A DNA stretch of 64,000 bases from Tridacna crocea (taxonomy: Eukaryota > Mollusca > Bivalvia > Cardiida > Cardiidae): the NCBI GenBank assembly GCA_943736015.1, contig OX031058.1:2185001-2249000 (forward strand), written 5' to 3'. The notes beneath the pieces are model-generated. The model ran no database searches. It was not told where the DNA came from and was given only the letters and a program-made list of their open reading frames with translations. The position numbers and the translations under genes were made by a program. Positions 27,476-52,974 of this stretch are shown in pieces. Position 1 is the first letter of the stretch; each line of letters starts with the position of its first letter.

Positions 27476-30400
27476 TCAGTCCATTCCAGCTAAAGCAACT
27501 CTCATTTTTCTCTGGCACAGAGTTCGTTTCCTTGCATTCCATTCATGTAAAAAAAATTGTAGGTAGAAACAGAAATGTGCTTGAGACATTTGTCTGGCTG
27601 ATTTTTTAATACATTGAATAAAACTGTTGAACTGTTCACAAACTTCAGAGTTGACAGATTCAAAACCTTGGAGGCGTCTGGATTTAAAGGCACATGAACA
27701 TTTGTGAGCATAACTATGAAATATATCATGAAAAAAACGGACATTCTTGTAAAACCCACTTTCTCTATTTAGACAATATTCCTGAAGATTGCATGCAAAA
27801 TCATAAAAGATATCTTGAGGTGGTTTTTCCAGGTGTGAATATAAAGATGCTGATGGATCTTTCCTTCCCTCAGCCCCAGTCATGTGGAAACCGTAGCAAT
27901 GACCATGATCAGCGCAAAACCAGAGAAATAAATTTGTAGAACCTGGTGCAGAAACCTCTACCTTAGAATAAAATTTCTGACATTTTTCAAAATCTAGAGC
28001 AGTATCATCATGGTCAGTATTTCTCTTAGCTTTTGAATCTAAATCAATTGAGAATTGTCTAACGTTTCTTATCTTTAATCCAGACTCATTGAAATAATAT
28101 GCTCGTCCAAATTTTGCTGGATTGTAGGTTCCTGGCTGAGGGACTGCAATTTCAGGTTCATGTACCTCCAGATCCAGGGACTGATTTATCAAGTACTGAA
28201 TTAAAACTTTTATATCATCTGGAATGATTCCATTGTTGAACTGCATTGACTTACTAATTAAATCTCTCAATTCAGGTGCATATGATCTCATGCTATTTAT
28301 GGTGGTATTAAAGAAATTGCCATCGATACTAGGACTTTGAATCAACTGCTGTAACATGGCACAGTAAGATGGTGGTAATAAGCTTGTCACTGACGCTGTT
28401 GTACTCAACATCTTCAAAACAAAGGCATATGCACGTTTTTCCAAGGGATTCATGTCAAAAAATCGTTCAAAAGAAAAGAGTACTTCATCTGGCAAAACTT
28501 CTTTGACTCTTTCTATACGATCATTTAGATCTAGATCACAAAGTTTATCTTTCTCTGCAAGTTCACCTATTTCCCTCTTTGCCAGATAGTCAAGGGTTTC
28601 TCTATTTCTAATCATTTGCTGTTTTTCAATTCCATTCATGTTTTTCAAAAAGCACCTATCCATTCTTCGATGTAAAGTATTAATTGGATGACAATTTGGA
28701 TCAAAATAATTGATTTCCTCAAATGTTGCATGTCTAAAGCCTACACCTACTTTTGTGCCGTCACAGCATAATCTTTTTGGTTCAAAGCCACAGATATCAC
28801 ATGGCCTCCTAAAATCAATTTTCATACTAGCTGCCCAACTAAACCACCACTTCAAAAATACAGAAGGATCCATGAACTTGGCATTTTCTGCCCTTAACTG
28901 ATACGCCTCAGTTTTCATTTGACAAAATGATGAAAAAGTACAATCAGATTTTAGAACCATAGATACAAACTCCCATCCTATTTCATCCCCTGCCGCAGTG
29001 TCTCGACTTAAAACATGTATAGATTCTTTTTTCCCTTCATCCCATGACAAAGTACATGGAGATACAGGGTTATAACATAACCTTACATGTACTTGACACT
29101 TAACAGGGGCAATACCAGTGTAAACAATTAGTAATCTGTTGTGATCATGACAAGTCCTTCCAGTTTCACTGTAATCTTCTTCATCTGTCCTTTTCAGCCA
29201 TCCACCTCCACAGTCACAAGGAACTTCTGGAATATCTGAAACTAAAACTGGACCTTTTAAGCAGCCATCAGAATATCTTTCAAGATTATTGTCATTCCAA
29301 CTGTCACGCTTAATTACATTTCTTTTATAAAAGGGACTATCTCTTGGACTTGGAGCATGATGACTTTTACATTTGAACTGCCAGAGACCAGTGCTTTCAT
29401 CAAAATTGGGTTCAGAGTCAGTTTCCGAGCCACTGTTATCTTGAAAAATCTTTCCTTCATCACTAGAGATCAGTGTTGGCATTAACTGTTGTTCAAGTAA
29501 GTCATACCAGTATTCAGTGTGCTTTTTGAATAAAGTAAGGTGTTTACAAACATCTGCATTTATTAAAGTATTAATACTCCTTTTATGACCTTTTAAAGAC
29601 ACACATCTACTATTAAAACATGTTATCAAGAATTTTCCAACTCTTTTATTGTAGGTCAAATGAACAAAACTTGGTATGTCCTCATCACAGGCGAGAATGG
29701 AGTATTTTCTGGTGTCTTTATTCCTATAGATTTCAGCAATTTCGTTATTCTTGAATTTTAAACTCTCCTGGACAAAACTATGTAACTTGTTATCATCGTG
29801 CTTGCTCATTTCAAGAGCTGGAGCGACTTTTTGTTTAAGAAATTTGCAGTGAATGCATGTTACACAGTTTTCTCCAGAAGAATCCAACACAAGGAAATCC
29901 TGATCATTGCTCTTGCATTCTTTTAAATTAACTAAAGTATGAAAAGTTTTGCAACTACAATAAAAATAGTCTCCATTTTCTTGAACTTGTTTAACTGTAT
30001 GTATAAAATCACTATATCTGAAGGAGCCATCTACTTCACTGTAGTCATTCATACAACAGACAAGATTAGATTGATGTTCATAAATTTGGATCACCATTTT
30101 ACCATGCTCCAGGAGTGATAAGCAGTAACTATCAAATATACCCATTGGGTTTTCATGCAATTCTTTTGTCTGAAAAGGAAGACTACATACATTATTGTTG
30201 CAAGCAGAAACCTTTGTTGCCTTCAACACACTTGTAGAAACTCCTTTTTTAACTTTTACCAACCTTTGATTAACATCAAAATCATTTTTTTCTTTGCTTA
30301 TTCCGCTTAACTCTGGGAAATATTTCATGTAAAATGCTATCAATTGGTACACATCATTTTGCAAATAAAGCTGAATTGTTCTGTTTCTTAATGATGTTGC

Positions 30401-31561: not shown

Positions 31562-31670
31562 CTACAAGTTCAACAATTAAAGTTATGTTATTTTCATTTT
31601 ATACTATAACTAGTTTCATCAAATTATCTTGAAAGGTTTTTCAGTTATAGAGCAGACAAAATTTGAGATG

Positions 31671-31704
<34 letters not shown>

Positions 31705-34700
31705 TGCACAGGACAAAGTGGTATGTCTCACGATCCTCACAGGGGAAGACATAAGGTAAGACCTGTGTACTGGAAAACAGCTATTTCCACTAAAATATCA
31801 TCCTGCAAAATTAGCTATAATCAAAAATGAGTATTATTGAACTACTTTCACCATTTCATTCTTTCCATTTTGTTCTTCTTTGAATTATCATTTATAAATC
31901 TAAAACCACTAAATTCTCAATTCGAGAGGAGATAATAATTACCTCCCCTTTCAGAAAACTAACAAAAGTATCCAAAAATAATTTAAAGATGGACATAAAC
32001 TGAATTTCTGATCTGTTAGAAATGTGCAAAAATACTATCTCTGCATAAATCCTTATTTATCCTTATCTATCAACCAATTACAATTTTCACTGGAAGTGCA
32101 TTAAACAGGTCTTACCTTAAGACAATAAATACCTAGGGTGGTCAGCAACTTCTGCATTAAACTAAGAGTATTTGTTTTGCACAGAACTCAGGCTGGGCAG
32201 TACTTTATCAAATACACAAACCAAAAATTGTGAACAATGTTTCATTTCTAAATCTAGGTGGAAACACCTTTCACACATTATTGCACCAAACAGAATTTAT
32301 GGAGATGATATTCATCTATATATCTCACCACATATCTGGTAGAGCATGGACCAGAAAACTGAACATTTTCCTTTTAAATTAGTAAAAGATAAGCAGGGAA
32401 AATGAGAGAGACAACAAGTTTTAGGAAGGAGAAGCCTGTTCAAGCCTGGTTTTCAACATACCAAGTGAGGTGGACAATCATGTAAATTGGTTTCATCTGT
32501 AAGCATGCCTCCAGGCAAAACACTGTACCATTCTTCAAGTGTTTGGCTGCAGTCCTTGGTCTGGAAAGAAGAAAAATTATGTTACATGTTGTAAAATCCT
32601 TACCTTTATGTTCATTTGTCTCATAAATTGTCCAATGAACTAGTGATATCTCTTTAGTATGAAGCATTAATACAGAGCTCCAAATAAGAGGGAGAGATGG
32701 CAGTCTAAATCCATTAGTTCTCTTCCAAACCCTATGTTATGGGTACCCATTAGAATTGTCTAAATGAGACAAAAGAGGGTTTAGAGGAGAATAATAAATA
32801 TTTTCAAGTTTGAAATTAAAATCACTCCCTCTATCTAGACCTCTGGGTAATAATATTGAGTAAAATGGAATATTAGTTCGCATGAAAAAGGAGTTTGCAT
32901 GAAAAAGGAGTTTGCATGAAAAAGAAGTTACTATATGAAATATTAAGTGCAAAGTAATGAAAAAGAAGTTAATATATGAAATAAAATACGAAGTTATAGA
33001 GGCTATTAAATGTAAGATTTCTCGGACAACCAGAATCTATCCACGGTAAAAGATGCAAAATACATGTAATTCCACTAATTTAAATGAAGTTAAGTACTTA
33101 ATTGACAAATTCAGTTAACTAAATCTGAAACGTTCTTAACCCTGACCTAAGACTTTGACCAAGCTTAGGTCCAACTGAAAAAGAATGTCAGGTAAAATAT
33201 GGTTCTCAAACATTAAGCAAGTCTTACATAAAAAGGTATGTATCATTATCTAAAACATATGTAAGACATGCACAGTGTGGACAGCAATCTGGCATGGTGA
33301 GTGTTCAGACTATCATTTTCTAAAGGGTCAGCCAAAGCTATTCATGCTCATCAACTACATGATTAAGTTTACAGTGATTAATCAAAGCTCATTTCTTATC
33401 TTAGTCTGTTTGTTTATAATTTAATGCCTATTTTAACAATGGTCAGATCACTTGCTGGAGCACTTTGCATAAACATCTGCCTGATTTCGTACATAAGCAA
33501 TGGCAAAACAATTTTTAGTTACAGAACTGGCACAAATACTTTTGTGATGACAATCATTTCTAAAATTAGTATTCAACTGTGCTTGGATTTTCATGTCAAG
33601 ATCCATGAAGCTAGTCCTGTATATTACTAGCTTCACCAATGGGCTCTACTCTTCAGTCTCTAAGTGAAATTTGTAGCTAAGGACAATGTAACTAGCATAA
33701 TACTCACTTTTAAAACATGATTTACCATATGAAGAGTAAGGTAGTTGAACTCTGTTGCTGTAATGCCATCACATCCTGTCCACTTACATGTTTTCTCTTT
33801 GAAAGCATGCTCAACTGCATGTAGCTTCATACTTGACAAAGTGTCACATCTATCCATACAATTTTCCCATCTGCATCTGAATATCTGTCAAAAAGAAATC
33901 CTGGATGTAGTATTTGGATCTTGCTAACTACTTGTCTACTAAAAGCTGTTCAAAATCCTAACCAAAATGTAGAGTAAACAATTTCATAATTTTTCTAGCC
34001 CAGTACAACAACAGCAAAGTATTGGAAACAAACACAATTGATATGGCTTGTTAAATTCAAGGGTAATGTAACTATTTCTTAACTGCACAGGGAAGGAATG
34101 AAACACTATCAAAATTTCACGATTTTATTCTACATTACAGCTAAAACAGCTTCATGGAGACTTTTGAAACACAGTAGGCTTCTATGCAATAGATACAAAT
34201 ACATGTTAGAGAAAAATGAATAAAACGGTTCCTTTAAAAAAAAAAATTAATTTACTGTAAATAATGGAGTTACAACAAACTTAAATAGGATAGAAAATAC
34301 ATGCACCTGCACAGAACTTCGGTGAAATACTTCCATGTTTAAACATCTCACAAGGGTAACAGCTATCAAAAATATGATATCGCAAAGGAAATTCACGTTT
34401 TGAAAAAGGATTTTACAGTTAAGTAATGAAGGACTTACCGGTCCTGGGTTTTGCTCCACATCATTTGATAGAAGTAGTCGCAGCCTGTTTATGTTTGCCT
34501 GGTTTTGAATCAGTAACATCTTCACAGCAAAGTGCAACCCTTCCCCTCCACAAAGTAATCCTATTGTCATCAACTGGAACAAGTCTTCCCACTCTGTTGG
34601 GCTATAAATTGGCTCTTTGGGAGAGAAAAAGAGTTCTTATGACAATGTGTTAAGGGGGATCTTTATCATCAAAGTTATGTCCACACCATTGGTATAAACA

Positions 34701-37700
34701 AAAAGGTAACAAATAAGGAAATTTTCTTTAATATCAGCCATCTACAAGAAAACTTTTGTTTAATTAAGAACTTTTTATGCAGACTGTGTTTGTGGGACAT
34801 GTGCTGCTTAAAAAAACATACATAGTCTAATCTGTAGGTGTATACGAGGTTTTCATGCATTTGTGGGATATGTGCCGTTTAAAAACGCACATACAGTGTA
34901 TAATCTATAGGTGTATATGAATATGATGCAAATCCTGCATCTGGTGAAACCCTGAAATTTGGCTTGATAATGGATAAATATGGTATTATCCTTGCTAAAG
35001 ACACTGATGTAAAGCTCAAAGTTTATTTGTTCTACACAGTTATGAGAGTTTGTTTATATTATAATAAACAAACCTTACAAAGGTTGTAAAGGATGCTAAA
35101 CCGTCCTGATTAACTATATTCATATCTATTGTCTGACTGATTTTACATCTAAAAAAGATCCCTGTTGATGACTGCATTATTGAAGATTTATGAGAAGCAC
35201 ACAGGCAAAAATAAGAGTGATCCAATGGCTTACTCCCATCTGTCATATGACTGGAATCCTGAATCCGAGTGAACCACGATAGTATCTTCTTCTACATAAA
35301 CTAGATCACACTAATTTCCAGACTAAATACTATGAAAATGATTATACACTATATCAGCAAAATATTTATGTCATGTCAAGCAAATGCAATGATAATCTTG
35401 CATAGTGAGGGACTGATAATTGTCACAGTAAAAAAACCCCTGAAATCTGCATTGCTGAAATGCTTGATTTTCATTTAAAAAAAAGTAATTTGAAAAAGGG
35501 CATAAATGTGTAAAAAAATAGTTTGATAACTATCTGCTCTCTTTGTAAAGGTTCACTCTTTAACACTTAACAACTTTTCTGAGTTTGATGTAAATATCTC
35601 CTGTAAAATGAGATATTTGAAAAGTGTAACTTTTTGTAAACTTTAGGTGGAAAAAAAAGGGGGGGGGGGTAATTGTGTCAAAAAAAGAATTGATGGTTGC
35701 TTGCCCTTATTTTTGGTTTTTCTGAGTTTTAATTAAAATATCTTTGGTAATAACATATACAGTATATTAAAAGATGTCCAAGTTCATTAGAAGATTACAA
35801 AACCACAGCTTTACTAATACCTCAATTTTTGTTAAAAACAGTCGAGCAAAAAATGTGACAACTGTTGAATTCTAGCTTTGCATGTTATTAGATTAATCAC
35901 TTTCAGTAAACATGTTTCAGGAAATAGCCCAATAGAAATCATGTTGAAGCTTTAAATCAAAGCTGTTATTGGATGGCATGAGTCAGTCTGTGATAAAAAG
36001 GTACCTTCATGTAAATTATCTTCAGTGCTACATTTGTCTTCTTTCTGTAAGGTATCTTTGGGTCTCTAGTAAAGAGAAGAAAATTTCATAATTTGTTCAT
36101 TTTATTTTTTACTTTAAACAAAGCGAAAACATGAATATATAAAATATTTTTGATTTATTTCATTTTACAGAAAAAAAATTGGCAAGTATTTCTCACTGAT
36201 CAAAAAATGTAAATATATTCCTGTGTGGTTCGGATGTTATATTTTTTTCAATCGAATTCTTTCACAAAATATTGACTTGTTAAAATTGAAAGCTTTTGAA
36301 GATGCCAAATCAGATGTGGCTCAAAAATTCCATTTGTCTGTATAAGGGAAGAAAACATTGTGCAAAAAGGAAATAATGCCTGAGACAAGCTTTCTTTTCA
36401 AACGATGCTTATCCCTCAAGGTTGTTAAATCTAAGAATTGTGTGGTCAAGATTTTAAGAATTTAACAATTGTTTGAAATTTGATTGATCATAAGGAGCCA
36501 GTGTTACTTGTTCTTCTTGATGTATAAACAAATATTATTTTCAAAGAAAAAGATATTTTCATTTTTAAAGCAATAAATCTCTTTTGAACTTCAGTGTAAA
36601 TTTGATTGCAGCAAAGTTTGGTAAGAATATTCTGCTACAAAAATTAGGAATAACGTGTGGATAGTTTAATTGCAATTTTCAAAAAGATGAAATATCCACT
36701 ATATATTTTGTAAATATAATGCAAAATAAGCAGAAACAAGATAAAATTTGTACTTTCATTCAGAATAGTAAATGTGGATATGACAATGCAGATGGTAAAA
36801 ATGGGCTTTCTTCAGTACAGCTGTATTAACGTGACAAACCTTTTCAACGTCTTCTGTTTTCCCAGCTGAGTGTCTTCTAATTAAATGATCCAGGAGGAAA
36901 TCTTCTCTTGAACAACGCACATCACATTCAGGGCATAACAGCCACGTCATCTGTTTTATAAAACAAGCCAGTTACATTTTTGAAATAAGGTATGCATCTT
37001 TTTGAAATGACAACTTTAAAATAGTGCTTCTTTTATACTAGGACTAAAGGCTCAAACAAGCACAAGTCAAATTAACTTTATTAATTTAGGCATGACCTTG
37101 ATTGTACAGGGAGATATTTTAAAATTGTCATCAATGAGAAGAACTGTGCAGGTCTAATTCCAAATCAGTACATGAATATTGAAGTTTATGGCAAAGACAA
37201 GTTTCTCTTCTGACCGTTTTTGTGACCTTCATCCTTGTTCTTGATGGACATACCCATCTATGCATAAACACACACAGACTGCATTTTACAACCACATCTC
37301 CTTAGGCCCATACGGCTCTATCGTAAAAAGCAAAATTTAAAACCTGCACTATCTAAATTCTGTTTTCAGTTTGATAGACAAAATCAATGCAACTCAAAAA
37401 TTATAATTTGTTTTGGGAAAGGTAGAAAACAATGTGGGAAAGGGATATATTCCTGGTTATCAACATTTTCTCTTTTTCCCACAATGTTTTAATTAGGCTT
37501 CTTCCTCTCGGTCGTGGTAGCCAGGGATTGTTTGGTAAAGGCTTTATAAAGATTTGGTCCATTTACCTACTTTTAGAACTCACAAGTCACAAATTCACAC
37601 TTGCCTAAAATATAACTATTCCATACCAGTTTTATGACTATCCTGTGGAAAATGTGCACTCTAGAGTGCAAACAAGGTTTTGTAAGATTTGGCCGAGTGA

Positions 37701-39888
37701 CCTACTTTTGACTTCATGTGATCCAATATCAAAATTTTCACAGATATAATCAAGAAAAATACTCTGACCATGTTTCATGAGTATTGAGCTGAAAATGTGG
37801 CCTCTGCAGTGCATATGTGGTATAGAACAAAAAGCTGGTAAATGACATGCTATCTTCTCCTACAATGTTTCCTACCCTTTCAAAATTCAATCCTATCATT
37901 TCAGCTACATTTATCAGCTTCGAAAGCTTTCAATATAAACAAGCCTGTAGTTTTTCCTTTTGATGGTCTTACCATTGGTATCTTTTTCTTCATCTTCACT
38001 GGAATTGGATTCTGTTTTCCTTTCTGTGAGGTGATTTTTGTGGCATCACAATTGTCATGTTTCTATGCAAAATTAAACAGAGATCTTAAATTAAACAGAC
38101 CTTGTTAGATTCATTGATATATTAATGGTGTTTTACCCTAATTTAAAAATTACTTCAGTCATATCTCTGCCACAGGACATATGTTATCTATCTACAGTTT
38201 CAGCAGTACTAGGCTAGGGCTCTGAAGGGACTTACCAAAGGACACTACTACAAAAAAAAGAGTGGTTTCAATGAGGCTCGAATATCTGGGCCTTCAGGTC
38301 TAGAGTCCTATACTTTATCAATGAACCAAACAGGACCCCTAAAACTTGTTAGAATGTCATGTACAACACCCTACAAACAGCATAAAAATAATGGCATTAG
38401 CAACACCAGCAGTCTACAAAATTGTTGAACACAAGGCAAAATATTCAGCTAGAGCTGCCTTATACTAACAAAAACAAGAGCACCACATGGATGTGCCAAA
38501 AGCTTGGTGCTAAATGTGTGATTTTGAGTAAAACATTCAATAAAAAAAAAAGTTAAAAAATACTTTTATAATTATCTGACCTTGTAATATAGTTTCCCCT
38601 TTTGATAATACTCAACTTGTCTAAGTTTGAAGCAAATGCCTTAGTAATTGGAGACATATAAAAGTTCTTTCACAATCCAGGCAATGCCAGGGCTACAGGA
38701 ACACTTTGAAGTTGTCATTGAAAATAGCCAAGATTAAAAAAAGCTTTACTTTAAATGTAGATTCAAAGATAAAAGTACTTTTCACACTAAAAATATCCTT
38801 CTAAGAGTTCATCAGTAAATCTTTGTACAAGTGATACCTTATCTCTTCAATGTGAAAATTTTCGAGTTTGGAATTCTAATTTTACATTTACTATGACCAA
38901 CCAGGGAAAATCATATATTAGTGTTGGTGTGTTGCTGATGATAAAAAAAAATCTTTTCCTTACAGGTCATGCAAATGATCACTTACCATAGCAAAGGAAC
39001 CTGATATTTTTCTTGCCTTCAACAGAACTCCAATATCCTCATTCAAAGGTACAAAAACATTAGAGTTCTCTTCAACTCTGAAATGAAAAAAAAAGAAGTA
39101 ACACACAATTTTACATAAATTCAATTACTTTTGTGGAATAAGGTGCAGATCATGATCAGACATAAAAAATTAATGGACTACAGCCTTAAAATTGCCCATT
39201 CTCCTCTCTCTTTTTTTTTTTCCTGAATGATAATATCCTTAGTTGTAATTAAATTGTAAAAGACTTTTTTCAATTGTTTTATACTTGTATTTATAAAACA
39301 AGAGAAAAATGAGTAGCATTACCTCCAGCACACTGTTTTTGGTGCAATTTCCCATTACAAAAATTTTCTTATTTTAACTCTTTTCCACAAAATCTCGACT
39401 TGTAACGACCAAGAGAACGAGAGTCTTTGAAAACATTGTGGGCAAAGGGGAAAATGCTGGTCACCAACATTTCCTCCTTTTCCCACAATGTTTTCTACCC
39501 ATCCCCAATCAAATTTCAATTTTTCATTCGCATTTATTTGTCATCAGTAAATGCTTTCAGTTTGGACTAGTCCAACATTTTGTTGTTTGGTAAACAGTTA
39601 AAAAGGTTAAATATCACAATTGTGTTACATCATTTTTGACGTCATTTTGTAAATGTATGTGATAGAAGTGAATTGAAATGGATATTATTGCACATCAAAA
39701 ATTGGTATCTTCCAATCTACCATTTGTGTAATATTGTAATGTGATAAAATGAATCTGAAATTCTCTGGCTCTTGATATACAAATAATTTAACGCTTTAGT
39801 AAATTTCCTGGTGTTTCATGCTGGGATGAAAATTTCAACATCTTGCTCTACCTTTTGTGTCGCACGATATCAAATGTTCTCACTCTGC
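27476..39888 (-). CDS. spliced ZnF-2A-ZnF-KDZ/HMGXB3-like transposase-derived gene (exons 9-16)
   Basis: Eight minus-strand exons (39852-39888, 38987-39077, 36840-36950, 36005-36065, 34439-34614, 33708-33884, 32462-32560, 27476-31561) join in one frame, each with AG acceptor and GT donor. The order is a short basic N-part, a C2H2 finger (exon 11), a 2A skipping motif ending exon 13, two C2H2 fingers (exon 14), a short exon and a very large last exon. The last exon resembles the KDZ family and the human HMGXB3 C-terminal region (cysteine clusters and an RNase H-like nuclease). 2A would separate the fingers of exon 11 from the transposase half. The gene may be an active intron-bearing transposon or a domesticated host gene; I saw no terminal inverted repeats around it. 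It may be continuous with the SGNH exons upstream. Confidence 0.75.
31505..31552 (-). other. degenerate 2A-like string at the start of exon 16
   Basis: LGLLLLDGDFEMNSNP resembles the 2A consensus (hydrophobic run, then D-V/I-E-x-N-P-G-P) but has Phe for Val/Ile and NSNP in place of NPGP, so skipping is not expected. It could be a relic of a second 2A or coincidence. Confidence 0.35.
31672..31705. repeat. (GACA)n microsatellite in intron 15
   Basis: About eight uninterrupted gaca units, between exons 15 and 16 of the minus-strand gene. Confidence 0.9.
32462..32560 (-). CDS. exon 15 of KDZ-like gene
   Basis: Acceptor tttcttctttccag; donor gtatgt; 33 codons, phase 0 at both ends. Encodes TKDCSQTLEEWYSVLPGG and LHDCPPHL. 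Being a multiple of three in phase 0, it can be skipped without a frameshift. Confidence 0.75.
32880..32930. repeat. 17-bp tandem repeat in intron 14
   Basis: Three copies of gcatgaaaaaggagttt in a row, the last slightly changed, followed by two looser gaaaaagaagtta echoes to 32975. Confidence 0.8.
33708..33884 (-). CDS. exon 14: two C2H2 zinc fingers
   Basis: Acceptor tttctttttgacag; donor gtgagt; 59 codons, phase 0 at both ends. The fingers are FRCRWENC...LHAVEHAF and CKWTGCDG...LHMVNH, both C-x4-C-x12-H-x4/3-H. It is the first coding exon after the 2A motif, so a skipped product would begin with Pro and then these fingers, giving the transposase half its own DNA-binding module. Confidence 0.8.
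34439..34486 (-). other. canonical 2A ribosome-skipping motif
   Basis: RLRLLLSNDVEQNPGP matches the 2A core D-V/I-E-x-N-P-G-P in full, with the usual upstream Leu-rich helix. Ribosomes skip the Gly-Pro bond, giving two proteins from one frame. The final Pro codon is the last codon of exon 13, directly before GTAAGT. 2A-like motifs are known from RNA viruses and from non-LTR retrotransposons and some genes of marine invertebrates; here the neighbours are zinc fingers and a KDZ-like transposase. Confidence 0.8.
34439..34614 (-). CDS. exon 13, ends on the 2A motif
   Basis: Acceptor tttctctcccaaag; donor gtaagt; two bases complete the codon begun in exon 12, then 58 codons. It encodes PIYSPTEWEDLFQL, a hydrophobic stretch GEGLHFAVKMLLIQ and the 2A motif. 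The 176-nt length and phases fit both neighbours. Confidence 0.8.
36005..36065 (-). CDS. exon 12 of KDZ-like gene
   Basis: Acceptor tttcttctctttactag; donor gtacct; 20 codons plus one base. Encodes a charged linker, RPKDTLQKEDKCSTEDNLHE. Phase 0 to 1. Confidence 0.75.
36250..36452 (-). mobile_element. MITE family A copy in intron 11
   Basis: tcacaaaatattgacttg..gaagatgcc head, gaaaacattgtgcaaaaagg core and gaattgtgtggtcaag tail; diverged. Confidence 0.55.
36840..36950 (-). CDS. exon 11: C2H2 zinc finger
   Basis: Acceptor gttttataaaacag; donor gtttgt; 37 codons in phase 0. MTWLLCPECDVRCSREDF and LDHLIRRHSAG include C-x2-C...H-x4-H finger geometry. It belongs to the part upstream of the 2A motif. 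The exon's ATG could also serve as a start if transcription begins nearby. Confidence 0.75.
37350..37544 (-). mobile_element. MITE family A copy in intron 10
   Basis: Core aaacaatgtgggaaagggat / tttctctttttcccacaatgtttt at 37428-37490, then agggattgtttggtaaagg. Orientation is that of 16506. Confidence 0.65.
38190..38337 (-). mobile_element. tRNA-derived SINE in intron 10
   Basis: On the minus strand: ggtcctgtttggttcattgat (A-box-like), then atattcgagcctc (B-box-like), then body text taagtcccttcagagccct and cagtact shared with 20330-20460. Confidence 0.6.
38987..39077 (-). CDS. exon 10 of KDZ-like gene
   Basis: Acceptor tttttttttcatttcag; donor gtaagt; one base, then 30 codons. VEENSNVFVPLNEDIG and LLKARKISGSFAM. 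Joins exon 9 (AG+A = Arg) and exon 11 in phase 0. Confidence 0.75.
39395..39597 (+). mobile_element. MITE family A copy in intron 9
   Basis: Strong hairpin: gaaaacattgtgggcaaagg at 39429 and cctccttttcccacaatgttttc at 39472-39494. Right arm gcttt cagtttggactagtcc and ttgtttggtaaacagttaa. Confidence 0.75.
39852..39888 (-). CDS. exon 9, short basic exon
   Basis: Acceptor ggtatttacttcag; donor gtagag; 37 nt. Only one frame is open, RVRTFDIVRHK, and it is the one that joins exon 10. It needs one base from an upstream exon, which the provisional exon 8 supplies. Confidence 0.6.
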
Positions 39889-42183: not shown

Positions 42184-45100
42184 CTTTGATAAAGGAAAAA
42201 TACTGAGTTGTCAGATATTTCATATTTCTATCACATGTTAAAGGTATAGCAATACAACATCAAATAAAAGTCAGAAGATAACATTATTGTTTTTTAATTA
42301 AAAGCTACCTAGACAGGTAATATATGCTAAATCTAGGTAACCTTTTCATGTGAAATCAGAAAGCTCCCTTATGTATATAATATACAACTGTTTAAATATC
42401 ATCTGGCTTAAAACAGTTGACTTTTTTTTCAATTTTCAAACAAGAGTGTCACAGATGACAAGTACAAAGCATAATGCAAGAATAAAGGCATAATCTATCA
42501 TATCAAAAATATGAGGGAAAATGAAAAAAAAAAAAAAGATTTTTAGGACTTAAATATTGTTTTTGGAAAATAAAACATTAAAATTCTTCAATGAGAAATC
42601 TAGGCAACATGCAAACAAAAATTCTTTCTTTACTTCAAACCAAAGGACTAATAGATCAAAAAATGTATTTTTTTTTTTTCATAGAATACTTTCAAGTCAT
42701 AAACCCTACCTTTTTCTTATCAGAGTCAATGCTTCCTTTAATCTTCACTACCATAGTATCCATCACCTCAACAGCACAGGCTGTTGGATCCTGGAAGTAA
42801 AAGGATATGATATAAGCCAGGGCCTGTATTCATCAACAATTCTTAAGAGTATTCTTTTTGTCTTATTCTCCACAAATGAGTATCTGCGAGATAAAAAGAC
42901 TAAGAATATTCTCAAAAATGGTTGGTGAATACAGGCCCAGGAATATGCAGGTTACCGGTTACCTGATATGGAGATTTGAGAAACTGGAACATTGCCGTCT
43001 GATTGTCTGTCAAATCTATGGAATACATACAACTACATATATTTATATATTTAAAAGTACCTTTAAAATCTTAAAGGTGGTCCTAAAGGTTTTGAAATGA
43101 AAAATCCAAAAAAATTACCAAAAAAAAATTGTTATACTCCCAAAGCCTTTCAATTTTCAGTCATAAAATCAGAGTAGTTGAAAACCATCCGACAAAAGAA
43201 ATTAGAGCTTTAATATGGCCCAAGTACACACCGATGGGAAACACATTCAATTTATACATGAGTAACACGTTCATTTACCTACACAAATTACATAGACAAA
43301 GCTGACAAGCAGACAAAGCTGAAAAAGACATTATGGAAAATAATTACTTGTACAATATGTTATGGAATTTAAGTGTCATTAGTGATATGCCAGTCACTTC
43401 CTATTCCAACAATGCTTTTTTGATTTCTGGTTCGAATTCTAAATATACCTTACCTGGCTACGTAGCCTTTTAAGGGGAATACCATCAGGAAAAAAATTGT
43501 GATTTTATGATTCTTAATTATTGATGATTTATATTGTTTTTTTTATATAAATTAAAGTGACATGTTTGTTTTTAATTTGGCAAGATGTGAGAAATCTATA
43601 TACCCACCTTTAAGAACATGCCAGTTTAAGTTTTAGGATACAGTTTAATATAGCGTTAAAAATAAAACAACTTTGAGTAAATCTACCCAACAAGCACAGC
43701 TTGTTCAACCATTAACTCATGACTAAATGATGTAAGTATATTTTTCCATAAATAATAAACCTTCTGTAAACAATCTCATGCTTTCTCTTTGAAATTATTA
43801 GTTCATGTGCATTAAGTTTAGTGTTATGTGTAAAAAGACAACTGAATTGGCTTTCCATACCTGGGCTTTTGCAACTTCACTATACATAAATGGATAAGTG
43901 AAAGTGTCGATAATCTTATGACTTCCTAAAGCTGGCCAGTCGTCATCTAATCCGGTTTGCTCCAAGTTGGAATTGGTTTGGGTCTCAAGGCCATCCTTAT
44001 GAATAATGTTGTAAACAAAATCTGCCCCATGCTGATTCAAATGCAGCCCATCACGGCATAAATGATGATCAACCTAGAAAATCCATAGTAAACCTCTGGA
44101 AATATGTCTAACTGTATAACAAAAAATGAATTTTTATTGCACAAGTATGAATTTAAAGAACTAGCAGATCCTACAATGTTTTCTAAAGGCTTCTTTCTCA
44201 GGGGCATCAAAAGTAGGGATTGTGTGGTAATGGGTTAAAGAATACCTGCATAATATGCAATACTTACAAAAACTTATATCATAGTCTCTGACGATATTTC
44301 TTGTGCAAGTTAAGCAAGCTTTAGTGCAATAGTTAAGCAAACCATTTGGCTTCATACAAGTAATTTATACTCAATGGGGAATGGGCCGGCAACTCCCTAT
44401 GCAACTTATGATTTCTTATCATTTTGATTCATTTACTATATATACTAAAACAATCCTGTATTTGTACATAAAAATCGTTGCTCAGGTGTTTCATTCCTTA
44501 CTGTTGGGTATATGAAACGTAAGGAACAGAGCAAATATGTAGGGTAAGGATGCAAACGTCTACTCTAAGGCTGACAAAAAAGTTCAAGGCAACATCAGTG
44601 TTGTTCCTAGGCCCAAAAGTACTGGTTAAAATCTTAGGGGACATTCTGTAAAACACAGCGACAAATACCAATTTAAACAAGAGCCGTCAGAGACGGGTTA
44701 TGATCCCCGAAAAAGTGCTTGTCATAAAATATAAGAAATTGATATAAATTCACTTCTTTTATCCTAGAAGAACCTGTTCATGCCCCCCAAATTTTGAAGT
44801 GAAAAAGGCAATTACTATCTTAGAGATAGCCAACACAAACTTTTAGAGGACAATAAGCCCATTAAGTCCCCTTTTCCCATAAGACAATATTGGATCATTG
44901 CATTAAATACAACTGGAGTGAGATTGCCCTGTAACTCAATGATGCCCTTTATGCATTAAATTTTCTTAATACAATTCTTTTTTTGTCATTCAAACTTTAT
45001 TCAGTTTAAACAACTCCACGTTTATTATCTTTTAACATAGATATGCGCGCTAAATGACCAAAGTTGTCGATGCGCCATAAAACAACATTCATTCATTACA

Positions 45101-48100
45101 ACTGGAGTGTGGTTTGTGGCATTTTTTAATAATAATTCAAAATTCGAAATTTCATAAAATTTTGAGCAGTCATGTATTAAATATTACATAAAACAATTTT
45201 TTACATGAAGCCCCCTTTTTCCAAGAGGCAGCCTAAAACTGAGAAAAACCAAGAGATGTACCTGGGCAACGTTCCAACAAGTTCAGATTTGAATTTTCAC
45301 AAAGTTTTGAGCACTGATAAAGGAGAACCTAGTGGAAAAAAAATTTTTTCCATGAAGTCCCCTTTTTCCGTGATGCAGCCTTAATTTGAGAAACCAGGAA
45401 AGATGTATTTGTGCATTAATAATTCATAGATTGCAAAAACAAAGGGCACGTGTTGAAACTTGTAAAACAAGATGTGACCATGAAATGTTGACAAAACCTG
45501 AACAAGATATTAGTAAAAATTGCAATTTTGCATTAGGGCCCCTTTTTCATTTTACAAGAAACCCCCTTTTTCCATGACAGAGGGTCAAATTGAAAAACAC
45601 ATAGATAAAGAATCAAGACCACATAGTGAAACTTTGAAAAAACAATATAACCATGAAGTTTAATGAAATTTTGACCAAAACTGAATGAAATATTAGTAAA
45701 AATTGGAATTTTGCAAGAAGCCCCCTTTTTCCATGACAGAATGTCAACTTAAAAAAGCCCAGATTAAAAATAACAACAACACATGCTAAAACTTTCTATA
45801 GACAATATAACCATGAAGTTTCATGGTATTCTGACAAAAAGTGAATGAGATATTGGAAAAAATTGCAATTTTGCATTAAGCCCCTTTCTTCCATGACACA
45901 GGGTCAAATTTAAAATCCGGGAAAATGATATCAGCACCTTACCCTAAGGAGTTCATATATGAAGTTTTATCCAATTTGGTCCAAGGGTTGTGGAGAAATC
46001 ACTTCGGACGGACAGACGGATGGACGGACGGACAGACAAAGCGGCGACTATATGCTTGCCCTTTGGGGAGCATAATAAATTTGACTTCATGCAAGTCAAG
46101 TATACTTGTATGCATATTACTACAACCCTCATTGCAAACAAATGGTTTGAAAGTTTCAAAGCAGACTCCCAACTAACCTGACAGATACCCATTGGAATCA
46201 TTCACTTGTAACAGACTGAATTTGCCAGGCTAATCCTGAAATTTCCTATTTTTCTGTTTGGATTGAAAGCAGGATGTATTTTAAGAGCTTCACTTTTATT
46301 ATTGTTGTTGATGTTGATCAAATATGCCCACTTACTTTCCTAAATTAGGAAACTTGTAGCTGGCGACATTTACACATTAAATGCATATAGATTGCTTAAC
46401 AAAATATTGTTAAGTGCTATGTGACATGAATTTGAACAAATTGAGGTGCAGTTAAGACTTGTCACTGATATTATGCTCAAAAGTATGCCACAACTACAGG
46501 AAAAAAATAAGGTACAGTCTATGATACGCATGCTCTCCACTACAGAATGGAGGTCAGGACTGCATAGTATCGGACTATACAGTGAGCAAAATTAAGAACT
46601 TGAGTGTGCCGGATGTGAGCTTTATAGCCCACACTACTGGTTTTTGTGGGGTACATTTTCAAAAATATTGCAGGAATGCCATGATGGCGCAGCCTAGACA
46701 CTACACTGCAACAATAACACAATTTAAATTTTGCCAAATTTTACATAATTTCCAACTTTGAAGTAATGCAGTGTGATAATAAATTATGCATGTTTATCAA
46801 ATTCTTAAAAAATTGCATAAATCAACACCGCTATATAGATGCAGTTTAGTGAATTGTAACCTTGATATCTCCAGAAACTTACCAGAAAACTGCCAAAAGT
46901 CAGAAATCTTACATATGGTGTGTGGTTGGCAATGTCATTAAACAAACCATTAGCATTCTTTATCCATCTGACCATCCTGCAGAGCTTCCCTCTTGTGCGC
47001 GAGTTCCAGCGTTGGTCTTCAGCTCGTTGAAGGATTGAACATAAAACAACTTCTGTGCTTGTAGATACCCCATGTATCAAATCACATACTTCTGCTACTT
47101 CCCTTCAAAGAAGAATCATTTTTCCTTTCTAGTATTTAAATAAATTAACAATTAAAAAAATATATATATATCAATTAAATATTAAAAAAGGTGCATTCCA
47201 CTCAGTTATCTGGTAGGTATGGGTCATGTTTTGTTTCATTTATAGAAGTCCATTAAATTTCATACTTCAAGGTTGAAACATATGGATAATTTTTAGGTAT
47301 AAACAAATTGATATAAGGAAAAGTAGATGCAACAGATAAATGGCATGTGAGACAAGAACAGATCTAAATAAACTAGAGATGTCAATTTATGTGACTTAAT
47401 ACCCCTTGACAGAAACAGGCAATTACTAAGTACTTTGAACACAGACGGACACACGGACAGACACACAGGCTGATACCAGTATCACTCCGAAAATATTCAT
47501 TTACAGGAAGTATAAACCTAAAATCCTATACAACAATGGCAACACAAACCTGTAGTTAGCTGTCCAAGTTTCATAAAAACAATTGCCATACCACAAACCA
47601 CTTTGGAATTTATTCCAATCATTAGAAAAATATATACAGCACAGTAAAAAGGGTCTAGTACAACATAACAGAGACAAGAGATCCTTGTTTTTGTGTATGC
47701 CTTAATTTTCACTGGATAAAAGGAATTATTCTTTCTCAATCCAACCCATGAACTGAAACACTAAGGTAATTTTTCAGCCAACAGCTCAATCAAAGTAATA
47801 AACTTAATTCCATGGAATGTTATGGTTTAACCCATTACCACACAATCCCCACTTTAATGACCCTTAGAATGAAGCCTTTTAAAAACATTGTGGAAAAAGG
47901 AGAAAATGCTGGTAACCAGCATTTTCTTTTTTCAACAATGTTATCTACCCTTCACAAAACAAAATTTTTACTCAGTTTTATTTTGTTGTCTGCAAATCCT
48001 TTCAACTTGGACCAGTGTAAAATTTGTCATTTGGTAGAGTTTACAATGCTTGCTATCTATCTCTGTAATTCAGCAGTACTCCTATTTGCAATTAAAAATC

Positions 48101-51100
48101 TACATTAAATGAAGTTTACCAACCTATAAAATAAACTTTGATCTACTAGATTGTCATTGGACCCCAATACCACATACACACGGCCATACAATACTGTCGT
48201 TAGTTGCCGAGTCAGCTGTCTTCGAAAATTCTTCTGATCGCTGGTAAATCTGGCTCCTTCATAACCAAAATATTGTAAATACAAACATACAGAAATGCAA
48301 TTTTACTAGATTTAATTGTGGTTGCCTCAATGCCAATTTAATTCTTTAGTTATGGTGAACCTGCAATTCACTTCAATATGAAACTAAAGTCACAATAATA
48401 ATCAGCATTGCTTCTTGATTAGGCCTCTTTCTTTTACACAGGAGGCCTGGCACTTCAACCGTTGTCTGGACCAAAGGTCGGGACAGTGTGGTAAAGACTT
48501 AAAATTGGGGTAACAACCCCTTTTTGATGTACAGGTTGTCATGGTTTTAATTTAATTTATTTTCAAGCTGACAATCCAGACAAGCCTTATTTATTGCTAG
48601 TAAGAGATTTGATACACCTTATTTTACTATAAATGATGAAACATTGACATCATAATAGTGACATCATCACAGAAGTCATAACAAGAGCAATGCCCTTTGA
48701 GCAGCCTAAAGAGGCTTGTCAGTGAAAATGATTAAAAAAACTAGAACGCCTACAGATATCCAAATTTAAAGAATAACATCCACAACTGCATATCATACAA
48801 ATTCATAGTGGTAAGTTCCAAGTTATTCCAATGGAAACTGTTGGGGGATAAATTGCTAACGGATTGACAGATAAAGAGACAGAAGACCGGGACAACCATA
48901 ACATTGTATTATCCTTCCACTGCATAAAAATGTGATTTTTTAAAAAGATGGCGCTAACTAGGGAAACAGGTGATGAAGCAATAATTCAGCTCTAGTTAAT
49001 CTGATTCAAAAGCACTTGGAATTATTAATGACATTACATAATAAATCATAATCAATAAATAATATAATTATGCTGTTAAGCAGCTTTTTCTCCTCTTCCC
49101 ACGTTTTCTCCCCTGTCATTGACAAATTTCATCCTTTGACTTACATTCAACCCTTTACAAAATAATACCTTGTTTTTATGACCCTTTGGAAAAAAAGGCT
49201 TATGAAAACATTGTGGGAAAAGGAGAAAATGCTGGTCACCACAATGTTTTGTACCCTATCAGAGAGCTCAAGTTCATTTGCACAGATCTGAATCTAATGT
49301 CTGCAGATGTTTCTGAAATATATGTATATAGATTCCAAAATTTTACATGTGGGAAAGGGTTACAAGGTTTTGTGCTAATGCTTTCAATATGGACTATTGA
49401 CAGGTTTCATCCTTCTCGTTATATTTAAATCGTTTTGCTTTCATTATGGACAAGTATATATTTTGCTCATGTGGTAAAAGGTTAATCCCTATCCTGCTAA
49501 AAAAACAAAATGAAATTTTAATTTTGTACAAAAAACTCAATTATTGCTATATCAAAGGTATATTCTAGGGAGTAATATCTCCTCATTGGACAGTGTATAT
49601 CCAAGATCAGACTGCACATTCTCTTGTAGTCTGATATTGATCTAAGCTGTCTGCAAAAGGTCATTGAGTGGTGTTTAGCAACCAAATGAGTGGTGTTTAG
49701 CAACCCAAGGGTTAAACTAGATAAGAGTATATGGCAAAATGTTGATTTTTAACTATCAGTTTTCAGTAGCAGACAAAACCAACGGCAGAATAGAATGCAT
49801 AAGTAAATTTATCTTTTGATATCCATCTACCGGTACTTGTACACGTTGCCATGTGTGTTGCAAAGTTAATTTATACAGCAATACTACATTTACCTTAGAC
49901 TACATAAAGGTATAGGCCTGTCTGTATAATTTGAAAAACATATTAAGATTGAAGAAAGAGTCATGCAGTCTCCAAAACACACAAAAAAATCTTTTTTGAC
50001 AATCCTTTTTCTGATGTGAGGTTTTGTGTTTGACCAATATGTTTGAAAGTTTTCATATCAGATCAATGCCCAAGACTCATACACTCCTTATGACCCGTAC
50101 ATTTGTTACATCAGATATTTAAAGAATTTTATTGAAGTGTTGCATCCAGGAATTCTGCCAAGAGGGGGAGATCTCCCATGGAATTTTCAAAATGTGGGGA
50201 GTAAAAATTTTCTGGGGTGGGTGAAAGAAAATTAAGTATACACAAAATATGTACTTATCTGGTCAATTTCCTTTTTTGAATGGAAATGAATACTCTTTCA
50301 TTGTTTCAAGGGCTGATAGGATATTTACTAGATCTCTATTTTTTATGGCCGACAAGGGAGGGTTGAAGCCTTTTGGATTGATCTTACCTTATTTCTAACA
50401 CAAAACATTATAGATTCTCATTCTTGATTGATAATGTGCATCTATAGATGTATACATCAATTTTTGTTCACGATTACTATACTGCACATTACGTTTGTAA
50501 GTCAGAATCTGGGGCCGAACAAATTTAAGTTTATTCCCTGGTGTTTTCACTCAATTCTTTCCTCGTCTTATTAACCATCGGCGTCGGCAACAGAACCGAT
50601 GAAAGTCTTTGACATGTTTCCTTTCAGCTGAATACATGACAAATCACAAGTTTAAAATTGCTGGGTTCTTCAATTCGTCAGCTTTATGAAGGTAAACATT
50701 CAATGCGCATGCGTTGATATATTGTTTCCCCGCTTTAATAGAAACTTCACTACGAAATGGGAAACCACCTGGAACAGTCTACATGTAAGGAAGCATTGTC
50801 ATTATCTCCCGCTAGATGGCATTCTATAAATACTCATTTATCTAATTTGGGCATCCTGGGTACAGAACCGAACCACTTTCCTATGCGACAACCAAATTAC
50901 TTTGAATTTCAAACTAAAATAAATGTTTACTCGATAAAACACTACCTCGTGCAATTCACTCAGCTATGATCAGCAGTTTAGAGAAATCTGGAGCTAAAGC
51001 AGGTCTCATTTCTCCCCAAACGTATTGTTAAAAGGTATTTTCTAAATTGCTACTTTATAGAGCGCAATATTAGTCAGCCCGCTTTCGGGGCTAGTGATGT

Positions 51101-52952
51101 GTCATATAAGACAGTTGAATCTTTGACGAATATGACATGCGCAGACAACGGAAGCATTGTCGGACTTCCGATTATTTTAATGAAATGACTTGAAACCAGA
51201 CTCGATTCTTTAAATTTCTCTTTTATGCACGCAGATGTGTCTTCCTTTTTGTGGGAGTTACACCGATATTGCGCAATTGCTCCCCCATCACATTCATGGA
51301 ATTGCGTGACGGCAAAAAATAAAGCGTGAATCCCGCAATCACGCGGCCTGGATGCAACACTGTATTGTGCACCCGACTTCCAGAATTCCATCTGATAACC
51401 ATTAAAGTTTTTGCCAAATGATGAAATATATATTCACATCAAATAAAAAAGCTGAATCGTGTATAAAATAGATAAAACATAGTTTTAAAGTCAATATTTC
51501 TTTCTTTTTTATGAAAAAACACACTACTTTATGAAAAAACAAATTATTTACCAAGACGAAAACATGACATAGCCATTTCAGGTGTTTTCGTCTTCATTGT
51601 TATGCACACGGGCCAAAGATACTGAAATAAAATACAGTTAGGTTCACCAGTTTTGATCCATCACGCCGCATTCAATCTGGCAAACTTGTGTATGTCTGGT
51701 TGACAGTTCATTTTACTCTATCCTTATATTAGTATCTTTGATCTGATTGAGCTTGCTTATTCTCTTTCCACTTCAGAAAAAAACAATAAAAATAAACCTA
51801 TGCCAAGATTGCATAGATCTACTTTCTCAGTTGGATTAAGTGGAAGACATTTGATGAACCTAACTGTACCGTGAAAGTTTACCTGGGAAAGGATGTCAAT
51901 TTGATGTTATAGTCTGACCAATTTGAGGGAACTAATGTATGGGTCATGCCCTTGAGTGATTCAAATGGAAACATGCACAAGTAACACCAAAGTTTAGTTG
52001 TTGTTACATTGTTTTTGCCAAAATTTTTAGTGTTTCAGATCTATAAGTATGTCCAATGTCATATTTTCTAAAGTTTTATAAATCATCTACAAAGTGGTAA
52101 CTTGCATGCATAAAAATATGATGTTATAGTAATAAATGCATGGGTCCACAGGCTAAAGTTTCAAATTTAAATGCGCATTTCAACATACCAGAAACAGGCA
52201 AGAAATGGGTCTCGATATCTCCATTACACTTTGCGGCAGCATGTAGGCGATGCACATTGGAATCTCCAGCAATCAATGTTGGGCGTTGAGCTGAAAAAGA
52301 AAACTCAGGCGCAAGATGAGACATTGTAATCTATATAATTTATGATAATAGTCTGATATCTTACCTTCTATTGGATATGCTACATGCAGTTCCAAAAAGA
52401 TCGTATAAATAATATACGATACACTTCTGCCTGAAAAATGATGCAAAAACGTTTAATTTTTTTACAGTATACAAAACAAAAATGTGACCTTTAATACGTA
52501 TTAAGCATGCGACGAAGTGCTCAGGGACAGCAACGAAGGCAAGTTGCAGGAATAATAAAAAACACGAAAACCGGTAACACTATTAGGTTGAAGCAACCGA
52601 ACAATAAACAGGAATTTGTACGTTCTAAAAACGTTGTAGCAAATACACACGTAACAAACTAAGATGAAAACACTAAAGGTGAAAGAAAATAGATAATTTT
52701 GGCGTCAGTTTAATAGATTTTATGAATCAAATTCTTCTCAGAGAATTTGAAAAACCTTTCGTCCTTGACTTAAGTCTCGGAAAGAAAGACTTTATCGCGA
52801 GAAAAAGAGAGAACATACGAAAATGTACGGAAATTCTCGAAATTTTGCCCGGAAATTTCACTGGTTCCGTCGTTTAAACATGGTTGACCATAAACGCTGG
52901 GACCAGTCAACGTGATACTATTTCCCGCACTCTTACGCCCAGATTTTCCCAT
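42091..52952 (-). CDS. spliced SGNH-family hydrolase gene (exons 1-7)
   Basis: Seven minus-strand exons (52829-52952 provisional, 52189-52290, 48124-48256, 46883-47102, 43861-44073, 42710-42790, 42091-42183) join in one frame of 322 codons. All SGNH blocks are present: GDSNVHRL (nucleophile Ser), VSGARF (oxyanion Gly), LGSNDN (Asn) and DGLHLNQHG (Asp and His). SGNH enzymes are serine esterases/lipases or deacetylases; the substrate cannot be told. After the hydrolase a Lys/Arg-rich tail (KGGRTRRQASARKRYYRSRR) looks like a nuclear-localisation or nucleic-acid-binding segment. No signal peptide is seen. It may continue through exon 8 into the KDZ-like exons as one gene. Confidence 0.75.
42710..42790 (-). 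CDS. exon 6 of SGNH gene
   Basis: Acceptor ccttttacttccag; donor gtaggg; 27 codons, phase 0. DPTACAVEVMDTMVVKIKG then SIDSDKKK. Confidence 0.75.
43075..43609 (-). mobile_element. MITE family B copy in intron 5
   Basis: Reverse-oriented. TTAA 43071-43074, AGGTGGTCCT start, ends ACCCACCT, then TTAA 43610-43613; 535 bp. Shares ggctacgtagcc and actacttt/ttttcaacta-type text with 18968 and 21898. Confidence 0.75.
43861..44073 (-). CDS. exon 5: SGNH block V
   Basis: Acceptor gattttctag; donor gtatgg; 71 codons, phase 0. VDHHLCRDGLHLNQHGADF carries the catalytic Asp-x-x-His of SGNH hydrolases near the start, followed by a non-conserved Asp/Asn-rich tail (LDDDWPALGSHKI). Confidence 0.8.
44161..44234 (-). 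mobile_element. MITE family A fragment in intron 4
   Basis: tcctacaatgttttctaaagg to gattgtgtggtaatggg, then TTAA at 44235-44238; the left half is missing. Confidence 0.6.
44680..46075 (+). repeat. long dispersed repeat with nested LINE tail, intron 4
   Basis: Opens acaagagccgtcagagacgg and closes with gacggacagacggatgg.. and ccctttggggagcataat. Internal units repeat: cccctttttccatgac.. and gaatgagatattggaaaaaattgc-type text about every 140-170 bp. Related in layout to 24520-25492. A retrotransposon 3' stub sits inside at 44978-45098. Confidence 0.65.
44978..45098 (+). mobile_element. 3' end stub of the I/jockey-type retrotransposon
   Basis: cattcaaactttattcagtt and taaacaactccac match the 3' UTR at 13570-13615. 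The stub then runs on through gatatgcgcgctaaatgacc, gtcgatgcgccataaaacaa and ends in cattcattcatta, a (CATT)n tail. A 5'-truncated insertion, as expected for LINEs. Confidence 0.75.
46883..47102 (-). CDS. exon 4 of SGNH gene
   Basis: Acceptor gattcttctttgaag; donor gtaagt; one base completing Arg, then 73 codons. EVAEVCDLIHG, VVLCSILQRAEDQRW, and YVRFLTFGSFL before block V: the beta-strand and helix pattern expected between SGNH blocks III and V. Confidence 0.8.
47831..48040 (+). mobile_element. MITE family A copy in intron 3
   Basis: TTAA 47827-47830, CCCATTACCACACAATCCCC start, hairpin gtggaaaaaggagaaaatgc / gcattttcttttttcaacaatg, right arm ttcaacttggaccagtgtaaa and catttggtagag. Confidence 0.75.
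48124..48256 (-). CDS. exon 3: SGNH blocks II-III
   Basis: Acceptor ttttggttatgaag; donor gttggt; 133 nt. With the split Gly codon it reads GARFTSDQKNF, then RVYVVLGSNDNLVDQ, where the Asn of GSND is the oxyanion-stabilising block III residue. Phases fit exons 2 and 4 exactly. Confidence 0.8.
48680..48930 (+). repeat. short copy of the acaagagc dispersed repeat
   Basis: aacaagagcaatgccctttgagcagc at the left and a decayed gctaacggattgacagat..cagaagaccgggac at the right: same layout as 24520-25492, much shortened. In intron 2. Confidence 0.5.
49148..49359 (+). mobile_element. MITE family A copy in intron 2
   Basis: ccctttacaaaataatacct start, core gaaaacattgtgggaaaagg at 49203, end catgtgggaaaggg; the right half of the hairpin is partly deleted. 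Confidence 0.65.
49486..49711 (+). mobile_element. MITE family C copy (TTAA-flanked)
   Basis: TTAA 49482-49485, TCCCTATCCTGCTAA start, CCCAAGGG end, TTAA 49712-49715; 226 bp. It shares tccaagatcaga..tgtacac-type text and gagtggtgtttagcaacc with 61619-61821. It contains a 19-bp local duplication (gagtggtgtttagcaaccaa). Confidence 0.65.
49720..52180. other. remainder of intron 2, few features
   Basis: Less repetitive than the rest of the window. The longest minus-strand open frame is 51074..51391, which has no recognised domain and is not needed for the SGNH chain, because exon 2 joins exon 3 perfectly. Confidence 0.45.
52189..52290 (-). CDS. exon 2: SGNH block I
   Basis: Acceptor gagttttctttttcag; donor gtatgt; 102 nt. 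QRPTLIAGDSNVHRLHAAA holds the nucleophilic Ser in GDS, followed by THFLPVSG, the end of block II being split with exon 3. An in-frame ATG at 52324 (MSHLAPEF) just upstream would allow this to be the first coding exon if the acceptor is not used. Confidence 0.8.
52829..52952 (-). CDS. provisional exon 1 of SGNH gene
   Basis: ATG at 52952 opens MGKSGRKSAGNSITLTG. A GTACAT donor at 52828 leaves one base that completes Pro with exon 2, so the phase fits. A TATA-like ctatatag lies only about 20 bp upstream (52964-52973), too close for it to drive a transcript containing this ATG. The alternative is the MSHLAPEF start in front of exon 2. Confidence 0.4.
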
Positions 52953-52974
52953 CCGGCCTCTCCTCTATATAGAG

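Follow-up and report, generated by a model that had tools for sequence, protein, structure and literature searches.

A probable KDZ-type DNA transposon of Tridacna crocea, predicted to encode an SGNH esterase and a transposase in one gene with a 2A motif

Among the KDZ (Kyakuja-Dileera-Zisupton) transposons, Zisupton makes target duplications of 8 bp and has terminal inverted repeats (TIR), Kyakuja makes duplications of 7 bp and has CA..TG ends, and the elements of fungi carry a TET/JBP enzyme (all from the accessible part of PMC12730594); the transposase gene of Zisupton is multi-exonic (extract of PMC9297572). The motif D(V/I)ExNPGP, known as 2A or StopGo, marks a point of separation inside the polyproteins of viruses and non-LTR retrotransposons, and LINEs of the CR1/L2 type with an esterase in ORF1 also use it (available sections of PMC4981915). 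The LINE esterase of the ZfL2-1 type binds acidic phospholipids, and membrane targeting has been proposed for it (PMC3905857, in the portion at hand).

Here we describe a locus that can be compared with each of these systems. The window, that is, the whole stretch of 64,000 nucleotides that was analyzed, corresponds to C3:2185001-2249000 of the bivalve Tridacna crocea, and the genome searched comprises 1.05 Gb in 31 contigs. We consider, with a probability of roughly 0.75, that the locus is a multi-exonic KDZ DNA transposon of ~39 kb, in which one gene encodes an esterase arm and a transposase arm with a predicted 2A separation between them. Like the KDZ transposons, it has a PF18758 domain scoring over the Pfam cut-off and dispersed copies with a common end (three copies, 5' end); like Zisupton, it has a transposase gene of several exons (14 in our model). 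As in the fungal KDZ elements an accessory enzyme is carried along, but here an SGNH hydrolase takes the place of TET/JBP and is 2A-linked to the transposase; the size of ~39 kb also sets it apart from KDZ elements. With viruses and non-LTR retrotransposons the locus shares a D(V/I)ExNPGP motif inside a polyprotein, whereas in this case the candidate 2A is in a DNA transposon. The ORF1 esterase of the CR1/L2-type LINEs is likewise a transposon-borne SGNH esterase, and a structure that we take to be one of them (4c1b) is the best sequence match among solved structures; here, in contrast, the hydrolase is joined to a DNA transposase, and the nearest enzymes by fold are PAF acetylhydrolase and sialate O-acetylesterase. 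The texim genes of fish Helitrons also place an SGNH hydrolase on a DNA transposon, yet texim is, in the accessible text of PMC4021074, a captured gene on a Helitron and not a 2A-linked part of a transposase polyprotein. SGNH is not mentioned in the accessible part of PMC12730594, and no publication linking Zisupton with SGNH was found in the part of the printed literature that was searched; a single paper there mentions both, in unrelated passages. As far as this search extends, the known kind is the multi-exonic KDZ transposon, and what is new is the SGNH esterase 2A-linked to its transposase.

Exon chain and protein domains

The exon chain was derived by splice-site and codon scoring, followed by reading of the sequence. 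The best model consists of 14 coding exons on the minus strand, from 52324 to 27476 (5715 nt, 1904 aa, in phase), and AG and GT flank every internal exon. The order of the domains is SGNH hydrolase, Arg/Lys tail, C2H2-like finger, 2A motif, two C2H2-like fingers and KDZ transposase; the initial annotation had proposed SGNH, C2H2-like, 2A and KDZ parts in this order in a single in-phase minus-strand chain, and this is borne out. The exons that it had listed are largely real, but its total of 16 exons and 5826 nt was not reproduced: when its two 5' exons are included, 16 exons with 5796 nt are obtained, and the model of 14 exons is better. Those two exons are probably not coding, because their ATG at 52952 is too near the element end (only 8-10 nt inside the common end of the mobile element), and because P0009, a predicted protein of Mactra antiquata, has its residue 1 at the ATG of 52324, which shares the frame of the SGNH exon (tblastn places residues 1-45 on 52324-52187). 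The start at 52324 is also kept in dead copies on C1 and C2, and the two discarded exons fall in the 5' terminal region upstream of it (52325-52959, minus strand), a probable promoter and leader. That every junction is in phase, as had been stated, holds with the exon 7 acceptor at 39067, which lies 10 nt downstream of the best-scoring one (39077), but not with the latter, which puts the chain out of phase; when a missing exon was looked for, two weak candidates were all that appeared.

Ten relatives (P0001-P0010) were collected in three protein searches, and nine of them (P0006 was left out) were used as tblastn queries against the window at E ≤ 0.01. All 26 cross-species matches, 8 of them on the last exon, fall on exons of the model and none outside, which argues that the chain is more than chance. 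These matches cover exons 1, 2, 3, 9, 11, 12 and 14; for exons 4, 5, 6, 7, 8, 10 and 13 there is no match from other species at this threshold, and the evidence is of other kinds. For exons 4 and 13 the support comes from alignments with relatives and from dead copies, and for exon 7 from one weak match besides a segment that aligns; exons 5, 6, 8 and 10 depend mainly on their splice sites and phase.

Blocks I (GDSN), II (Gly), III (GSND) and V (DxxH) of the SGNH hydrolases are all present. Exon 1 (52189-52324; P0009 alignment, dead copies on C1 and C2) contains the start codon, block I (GDSN, 52267-52256) and the glycine of block II; exon 2 (48124-48256; tblastn matches of P0005 and P0009, two copies on C8 and one on C4) contains block III (GSND, 48164-48153); exon 3 (46883-47102; tblastn matches of P0005, P0007 and P0009) continues the domain, and exon 4 (43861-44073; alignment with P0005 and P0009, copy on C8) contains block V (DGLH, 44052-44041), all on the minus strand like the rest of the chain. 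The GDSN, GSND and DGLH motifs are kept in P0005 and P0009. The Pfam profile Lipase_GDSL_2 matches this part with E = 1.1e-4, but at 23.1 bits the score is below the cut-off of 32.9, as it also is in the relatives P0005 (26.8 bits) and P0006 (27.7 bits). In a comparison of an SGNH profile with solved structures the best match was 4c1b, an ORF1-encoded protein (E = 4.1e-6) that we take to be the ZfL2-1 LINE esterase, followed by 2hsj (E = 7.8e-5). The fold model of the Mya relative P0005 has a pLDDT of 49.8 as a whole and mostly of 64-94 in the SGNH part; in its comparison with the PDB the SGNH enzymes PAF acetylhydrolase and sialate O-acetylesterase headed the matches (E = 2.8e-6, with a TM by target of about 0.5-0.6), and 4c1b was not among the 50 matches listed.

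The SGNH domain is followed by a linker in exon 5 (42710-42790; splice sites and phase only) and by the Arg/Lys-rich tail in exon 6 (42091-42180; splice sites and phase, similar basic stretches in P0004 and P0005); the most basic 30 residues include 14 Lys/Arg. Exon 7 (38987-39067, or from 39077 if the other acceptor is used) aligns with segments of P0005 and P0009, and exon 8 (37973-38023) is a short linker placed by splice sites and phase, with a weak match in the C1 copy. A C2H2 finger occupies exon 9 (36840-36950; tblastn matches of P0005, P0008 and P0010; Pfam zf-C2H2 E = 0.0058, below the cut-off), and exon 10 (36005-36065) is a linker placed by splice sites and phase only. Exon 11 (34439-34614; tblastn matches of P0003, P0007, P0008, P0009 and P0010) ends with the 2A motif SNDVEQNPGP, which is internal to the protein, with NPGP at 34450-34439. 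The form D(V/I)ExNPGP is kept in the window and in four other bivalve species (Mya, Mactra, Dreissena and Argopecten), and the decayed copy on C1 reads NPGL at this site. Separation at the predicted 2A site would yield products of 450 and 1454 aa. The exon border at 34439 comes directly after the last NPGP codon, so that the cut in the protein and the exon border nearly coincide. Exon 12 (33708-33884; tblastn matches of P0003, P0007 and P0008) has two fingers (C-X4-C ... H-X3-H) with no zf-C2H2 match in Pfam, called C2H2-like by the spacing of Cys and His, and exon 13 (32462-32560; alignments with P0003, P0004 and P0007-P0009, copies on C1, C4 and C13) is a conserved linker.

Exon 14 (27476-31561), with 1361 codons and the stop, encodes the KDZ transposase. 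This long frame has a Pfam KDZ match (PF18758) at about 28112-27536 with E = 6.3e-11. Its score of 42.8 bits exceeds the cut-off of 26.6, which P0001 and P0010 also pass and P0009 does not; the match is the only one to KDZ over the cut-off in the genome, among three candidates scored. The Asp, Asp and Glu in CADHG, FYDFAC and CEQF are invariant in four proteins and are candidates for the acidic catalytic residues. The fold model of the KDZ part (pLDDT 39.7) was too poor for comparison, and a profile search of the PDB with the KDZ alignment gave 0 matches.

Two further candidates were discarded. A Ulp-like protease exon at 51074-51433 has no Pfam match and lies outside the model; the stretch 50800-51152, which overlaps it, is a repeat that is also found on C8. 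What resembles a second, degenerate 2A where the last exon begins (GDFEMNSNPY) corresponds in the relatives to an ordinary conserved segment.

Element boundaries and decayed copies

The left flank (13929-13953) and the right flank (52969-53343) of the locus are adjacent to each other, with a 3-nt overlap, at C13:11297615-11297998. The right flank is part of A, a repeat that is abundant in the genome (of its 470 candidates 40 were scored, and the 39 besides the window are 93-97% identical), and with the two flanks joined 39 of 39 other listed matches run through the junction (40 scored of 398 candidates). Since the other listed copies run through the site, 13954-52968 is an insertion of ~39.0 kb, with the gene on its minus strand, that splits a copy of repeat A; the host unit of the gene is a mobile element, which corrects the earlier reading. 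Its right (5') end at 52960-52962, with the terminus (A)GAGGCCGGAT... on the minus strand, is common to copies on C1, C2 and C4, whose homology begins at C1:72923197, C2:58838062 and C4:8061747 and which have unrelated sequence outside. The left end at 13954 is without a second copy: in the C1 and C4 copies homology to the window stops at 15126-15129, and as the two stay alike past this point the 3' end cannot be fixed from them; moreover 13956-14350 resembles a dispersed repeat that elsewhere runs on leftwards. The candidate target duplication is ATA, of 3 bp (13951-13953 and 52969-52971), and no TIR and no second copy of the 5' end sequence were found in the window, compared with the 7 or 8 bp given for KDZ elements in the accessible part of PMC12730594. 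A duplication of 7 or 8 bp is absent at these ends; the left end is provisional, so this absence could reflect wrong ends.

At the right junction (52960-52971) the flank together with 6 extra bases forms a perfect palindrome, CTCTATATAGAG (52963/4-52974 region), which might be a trace of hairpin-type repair. A different palindromic repeat, 66 nt long (GAAAACATTGTGGGAAAAGG...), has seven copies with at least 60% identity between 16618 and 54414, in and beside the element, and is also frequent in other stretches of the genome. Left of the element there are two broken LINE copies in opposite orientation (1942-4734, minus strand; 9196-13113, plus strand), with endonuclease (E = 5.6e-26) and RNase H (E = 8.4e-11) domains, and a frame with a THAP domain (1346-1873, minus strand, E = 1.6e-13).

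Decayed copies covering the KDZ exon were found at C1:72942277-72947470, C4:8021810-8026761 and C13:11303590-11400807, the last in three pieces ~47 kb apart. All three share an insertion near window position 29593-29596 and the loss of ~487 bp (window 28072-28558, with 28070/28071 joined to 28559/28560), which is a deletion because P0001, P0002 and P0010 have this stretch. Between C1 and C4 the main collinear blocks show 89-96% identity, with unrelated flanks, and the copies found besides that of the window carry many stops. The C1, C4 and C13 copies form a dispersed defective sub-family, and the most plausible reading of them is a defective derivative, moved in trans, whose spread followed the partial loss of its transposase: three copies with one shared internal deletion are as expected of such a derivative. 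Further 5' copies with SGNH exons occur at C8:48392-48424 kb, C4:19125 kb and C2:58838 kb. No KDZ part is present in the stretches fetched around the SGNH exons of C8 and C4:19.1 Mb and around the 5' end on C2, which may be due to decay, insertion or true separation.

Substitutions were counted where the dead copies have a common state that differs from that of the window. There were 8 synonymous and 2 non-synonymous changes in exons 2-4 (333 sites; neutral expectation 77% non-synonymous), 12 and 17 in exons 11-13 (274 sites; 81%) and 112 and 222 (222/334 non-synonymous) in exon 14 (3501 sites; 80%), and these counts mix the branch of the window with the stem of the dead copies, since C1, C4 and C13 share the deletion and have few private changes; for this reason a star-tree reading of them was set aside. 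The SGNH exons look constrained, and the KDZ exon looks to be under only mild constraint.

Linkage of the domains and rival explanations

The relatives bear on whether the SGNH, C2H2, 2A and KDZ parts form one gene, as had been proposed. P0009 (Mactra antiquata, 1701 aa) has an SGNH domain with GDSN, GSND and DGLH, then ANDVEQNPGP and then the KDZ protein; it has no fingers, and its C-terminus departs after FYDFAC, hence the missing Pfam KDZ match. In the partial P0010 of Mya arenaria (1169 aa), SGNH block I is followed by a C2H2 finger, by ANDVEQNPGP and by a KDZ domain (E = 1.4e-10), and the remainder of the SGNH domain and the fingers after 2A are lacking. The order of the SGNH, 2A and KDZ-protein parts recurs in these two proteins; neither is complete, however, so that the whole order is found in no single foreign protein. 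P0007 (Mya) joins an SGNH segment, SNDVEQNPGP, two fingers and the N-terminal part of the KDZ protein, and P0003 (Dreissena polymorpha) and P0004 (Argopecten irradians) contain N-terminal parts of the KDZ protein together with 2A and fingers, but no SGNH domain. In the decayed C1 copy (72923197-72947470) the 5' end, the exon of SGNH block I, the 2A exon and the KDZ exon are collinear over ~25 kb; exons 7 and 8 are weakly matched, exons 12, 13 and 14 follow in order and exons 2-6 are missing. With P0009, P0010, P0007 and the collinear C1 copy, the proposal of a single gene is supported at the level of sequence; in the two other species the linkage from SGNH to KDZ comes from gene prediction, which can fuse neighbours.

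One may ask, then, if the mobile element could instead contain two transcription units, an SGNH gene and a C2H2-2A-KDZ gene in which 2A would free no more than a short leader from the transposase. P0005 (Mya, isoform X2) comprises the SGNH domain, basic tail and finger and stops before 2A, in the predictions for the Mya protein P0008 and for P0003 the start lies beyond the SGNH part, and the copies on C8 and at C4:19.1 Mb have only SGNH exons in the fetched stretches; P0008 overlaps P0005 with 141 of 143 residues equal and then goes on through 2A and the fingers. We consider this arrangement unlikely, as predicted proteins of two species (P0009, P0010 and P0007) join SGNH to the 2A-KDZ parts, and the chain is in phase across exons 4-11 save for the doubtful acceptor of exon 7.

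Domestication, in which one intact copy would be selected for a host function among decayed transposon relatives, seems quite improbable. A single Pfam KDZ match among the three candidates that were scored in the genome, the stops in the other copies found and the constraint on the SGNH exons are what such a history would leave; against it, the gene splits a copy of a repeat of which the other listed copies are still 93-97% alike, so that the insertion is not very old, near-identical segments of Mya lie in different loci (the Mya relatives are located on five contigs that differ in length) and the ends of the element are still recognisable. As for a chain of unrelated exons assembled by chance or in the manner of an annotation error, it could draw on exons 5, 6, 8 and 10, with their splice sites and phase, and on the weaker acceptor that exon 7 needs; with 26 of 26 cross-species matches on the exons of the model and a collinear decayed copy on C1, it is disfavoured to the point of being very improbable.

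Proposed mechanism and meaning

If the reading as one gene of a KDZ transposon is correct, a single mRNA would be transcribed from the whole gene, and ribosomes would fail to join Gly and Pro at NPGP, releasing in a fixed ratio an esterase arm of 450 aa, with the basic tail and one finger, and a transposase of 1454 aa with two fingers. By analogy with the family, the fingers would bind DNA of the element or of the host, and the KDZ nuclease would cut and paste. The esterase arm would most likely be a nuclear accessory enzyme of transposition, in a role like that of TET/JBP in the fungal KDZ elements, and might remove an acyl or acetyl group from chromatin, from a lipid of the nuclear membrane or from a host factor; this role is conjecture, and we favour a target in chromatin or the nuclear membrane.

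A bolder version holds that a cut-and-paste transposon took over the esterase-2A arrangement of a CR1/L2-type LINE, with StopGo setting a fixed ratio, and that transposition cannot do without the esterase, which might for instance deacylate a target in chromatin or the nuclear envelope; we regard it as rather doubtful. No endonuclease/reverse transcriptase ORF2 was recognised in ORFs of the element of at least 100-110 aa, part of which were profile-scanned, and the LINE ORFs at 1.9-13.1 kb lie outside the element. The Mya protein P0006, in which SGNH is combined with an endonuclease, was set aside as a sign of LINE origin: its SGNH part begins in the same way as the KDZ protein P0010, which points to a fused prediction.

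Should the single-gene transposon be confirmed, an animal DNA transposon would couple its transposase to an esterase by 2A recoding. After the TET/JBP of the fungal elements, this would be a second enzyme carried by a KDZ element without an evident need for it in DNA cutting. The role of transposon-borne SGNH esterases, in LINEs, Helitrons and KDZ elements, would become testable with two products from one message, and the family would be a source of natural 2A sequences of animal origin.
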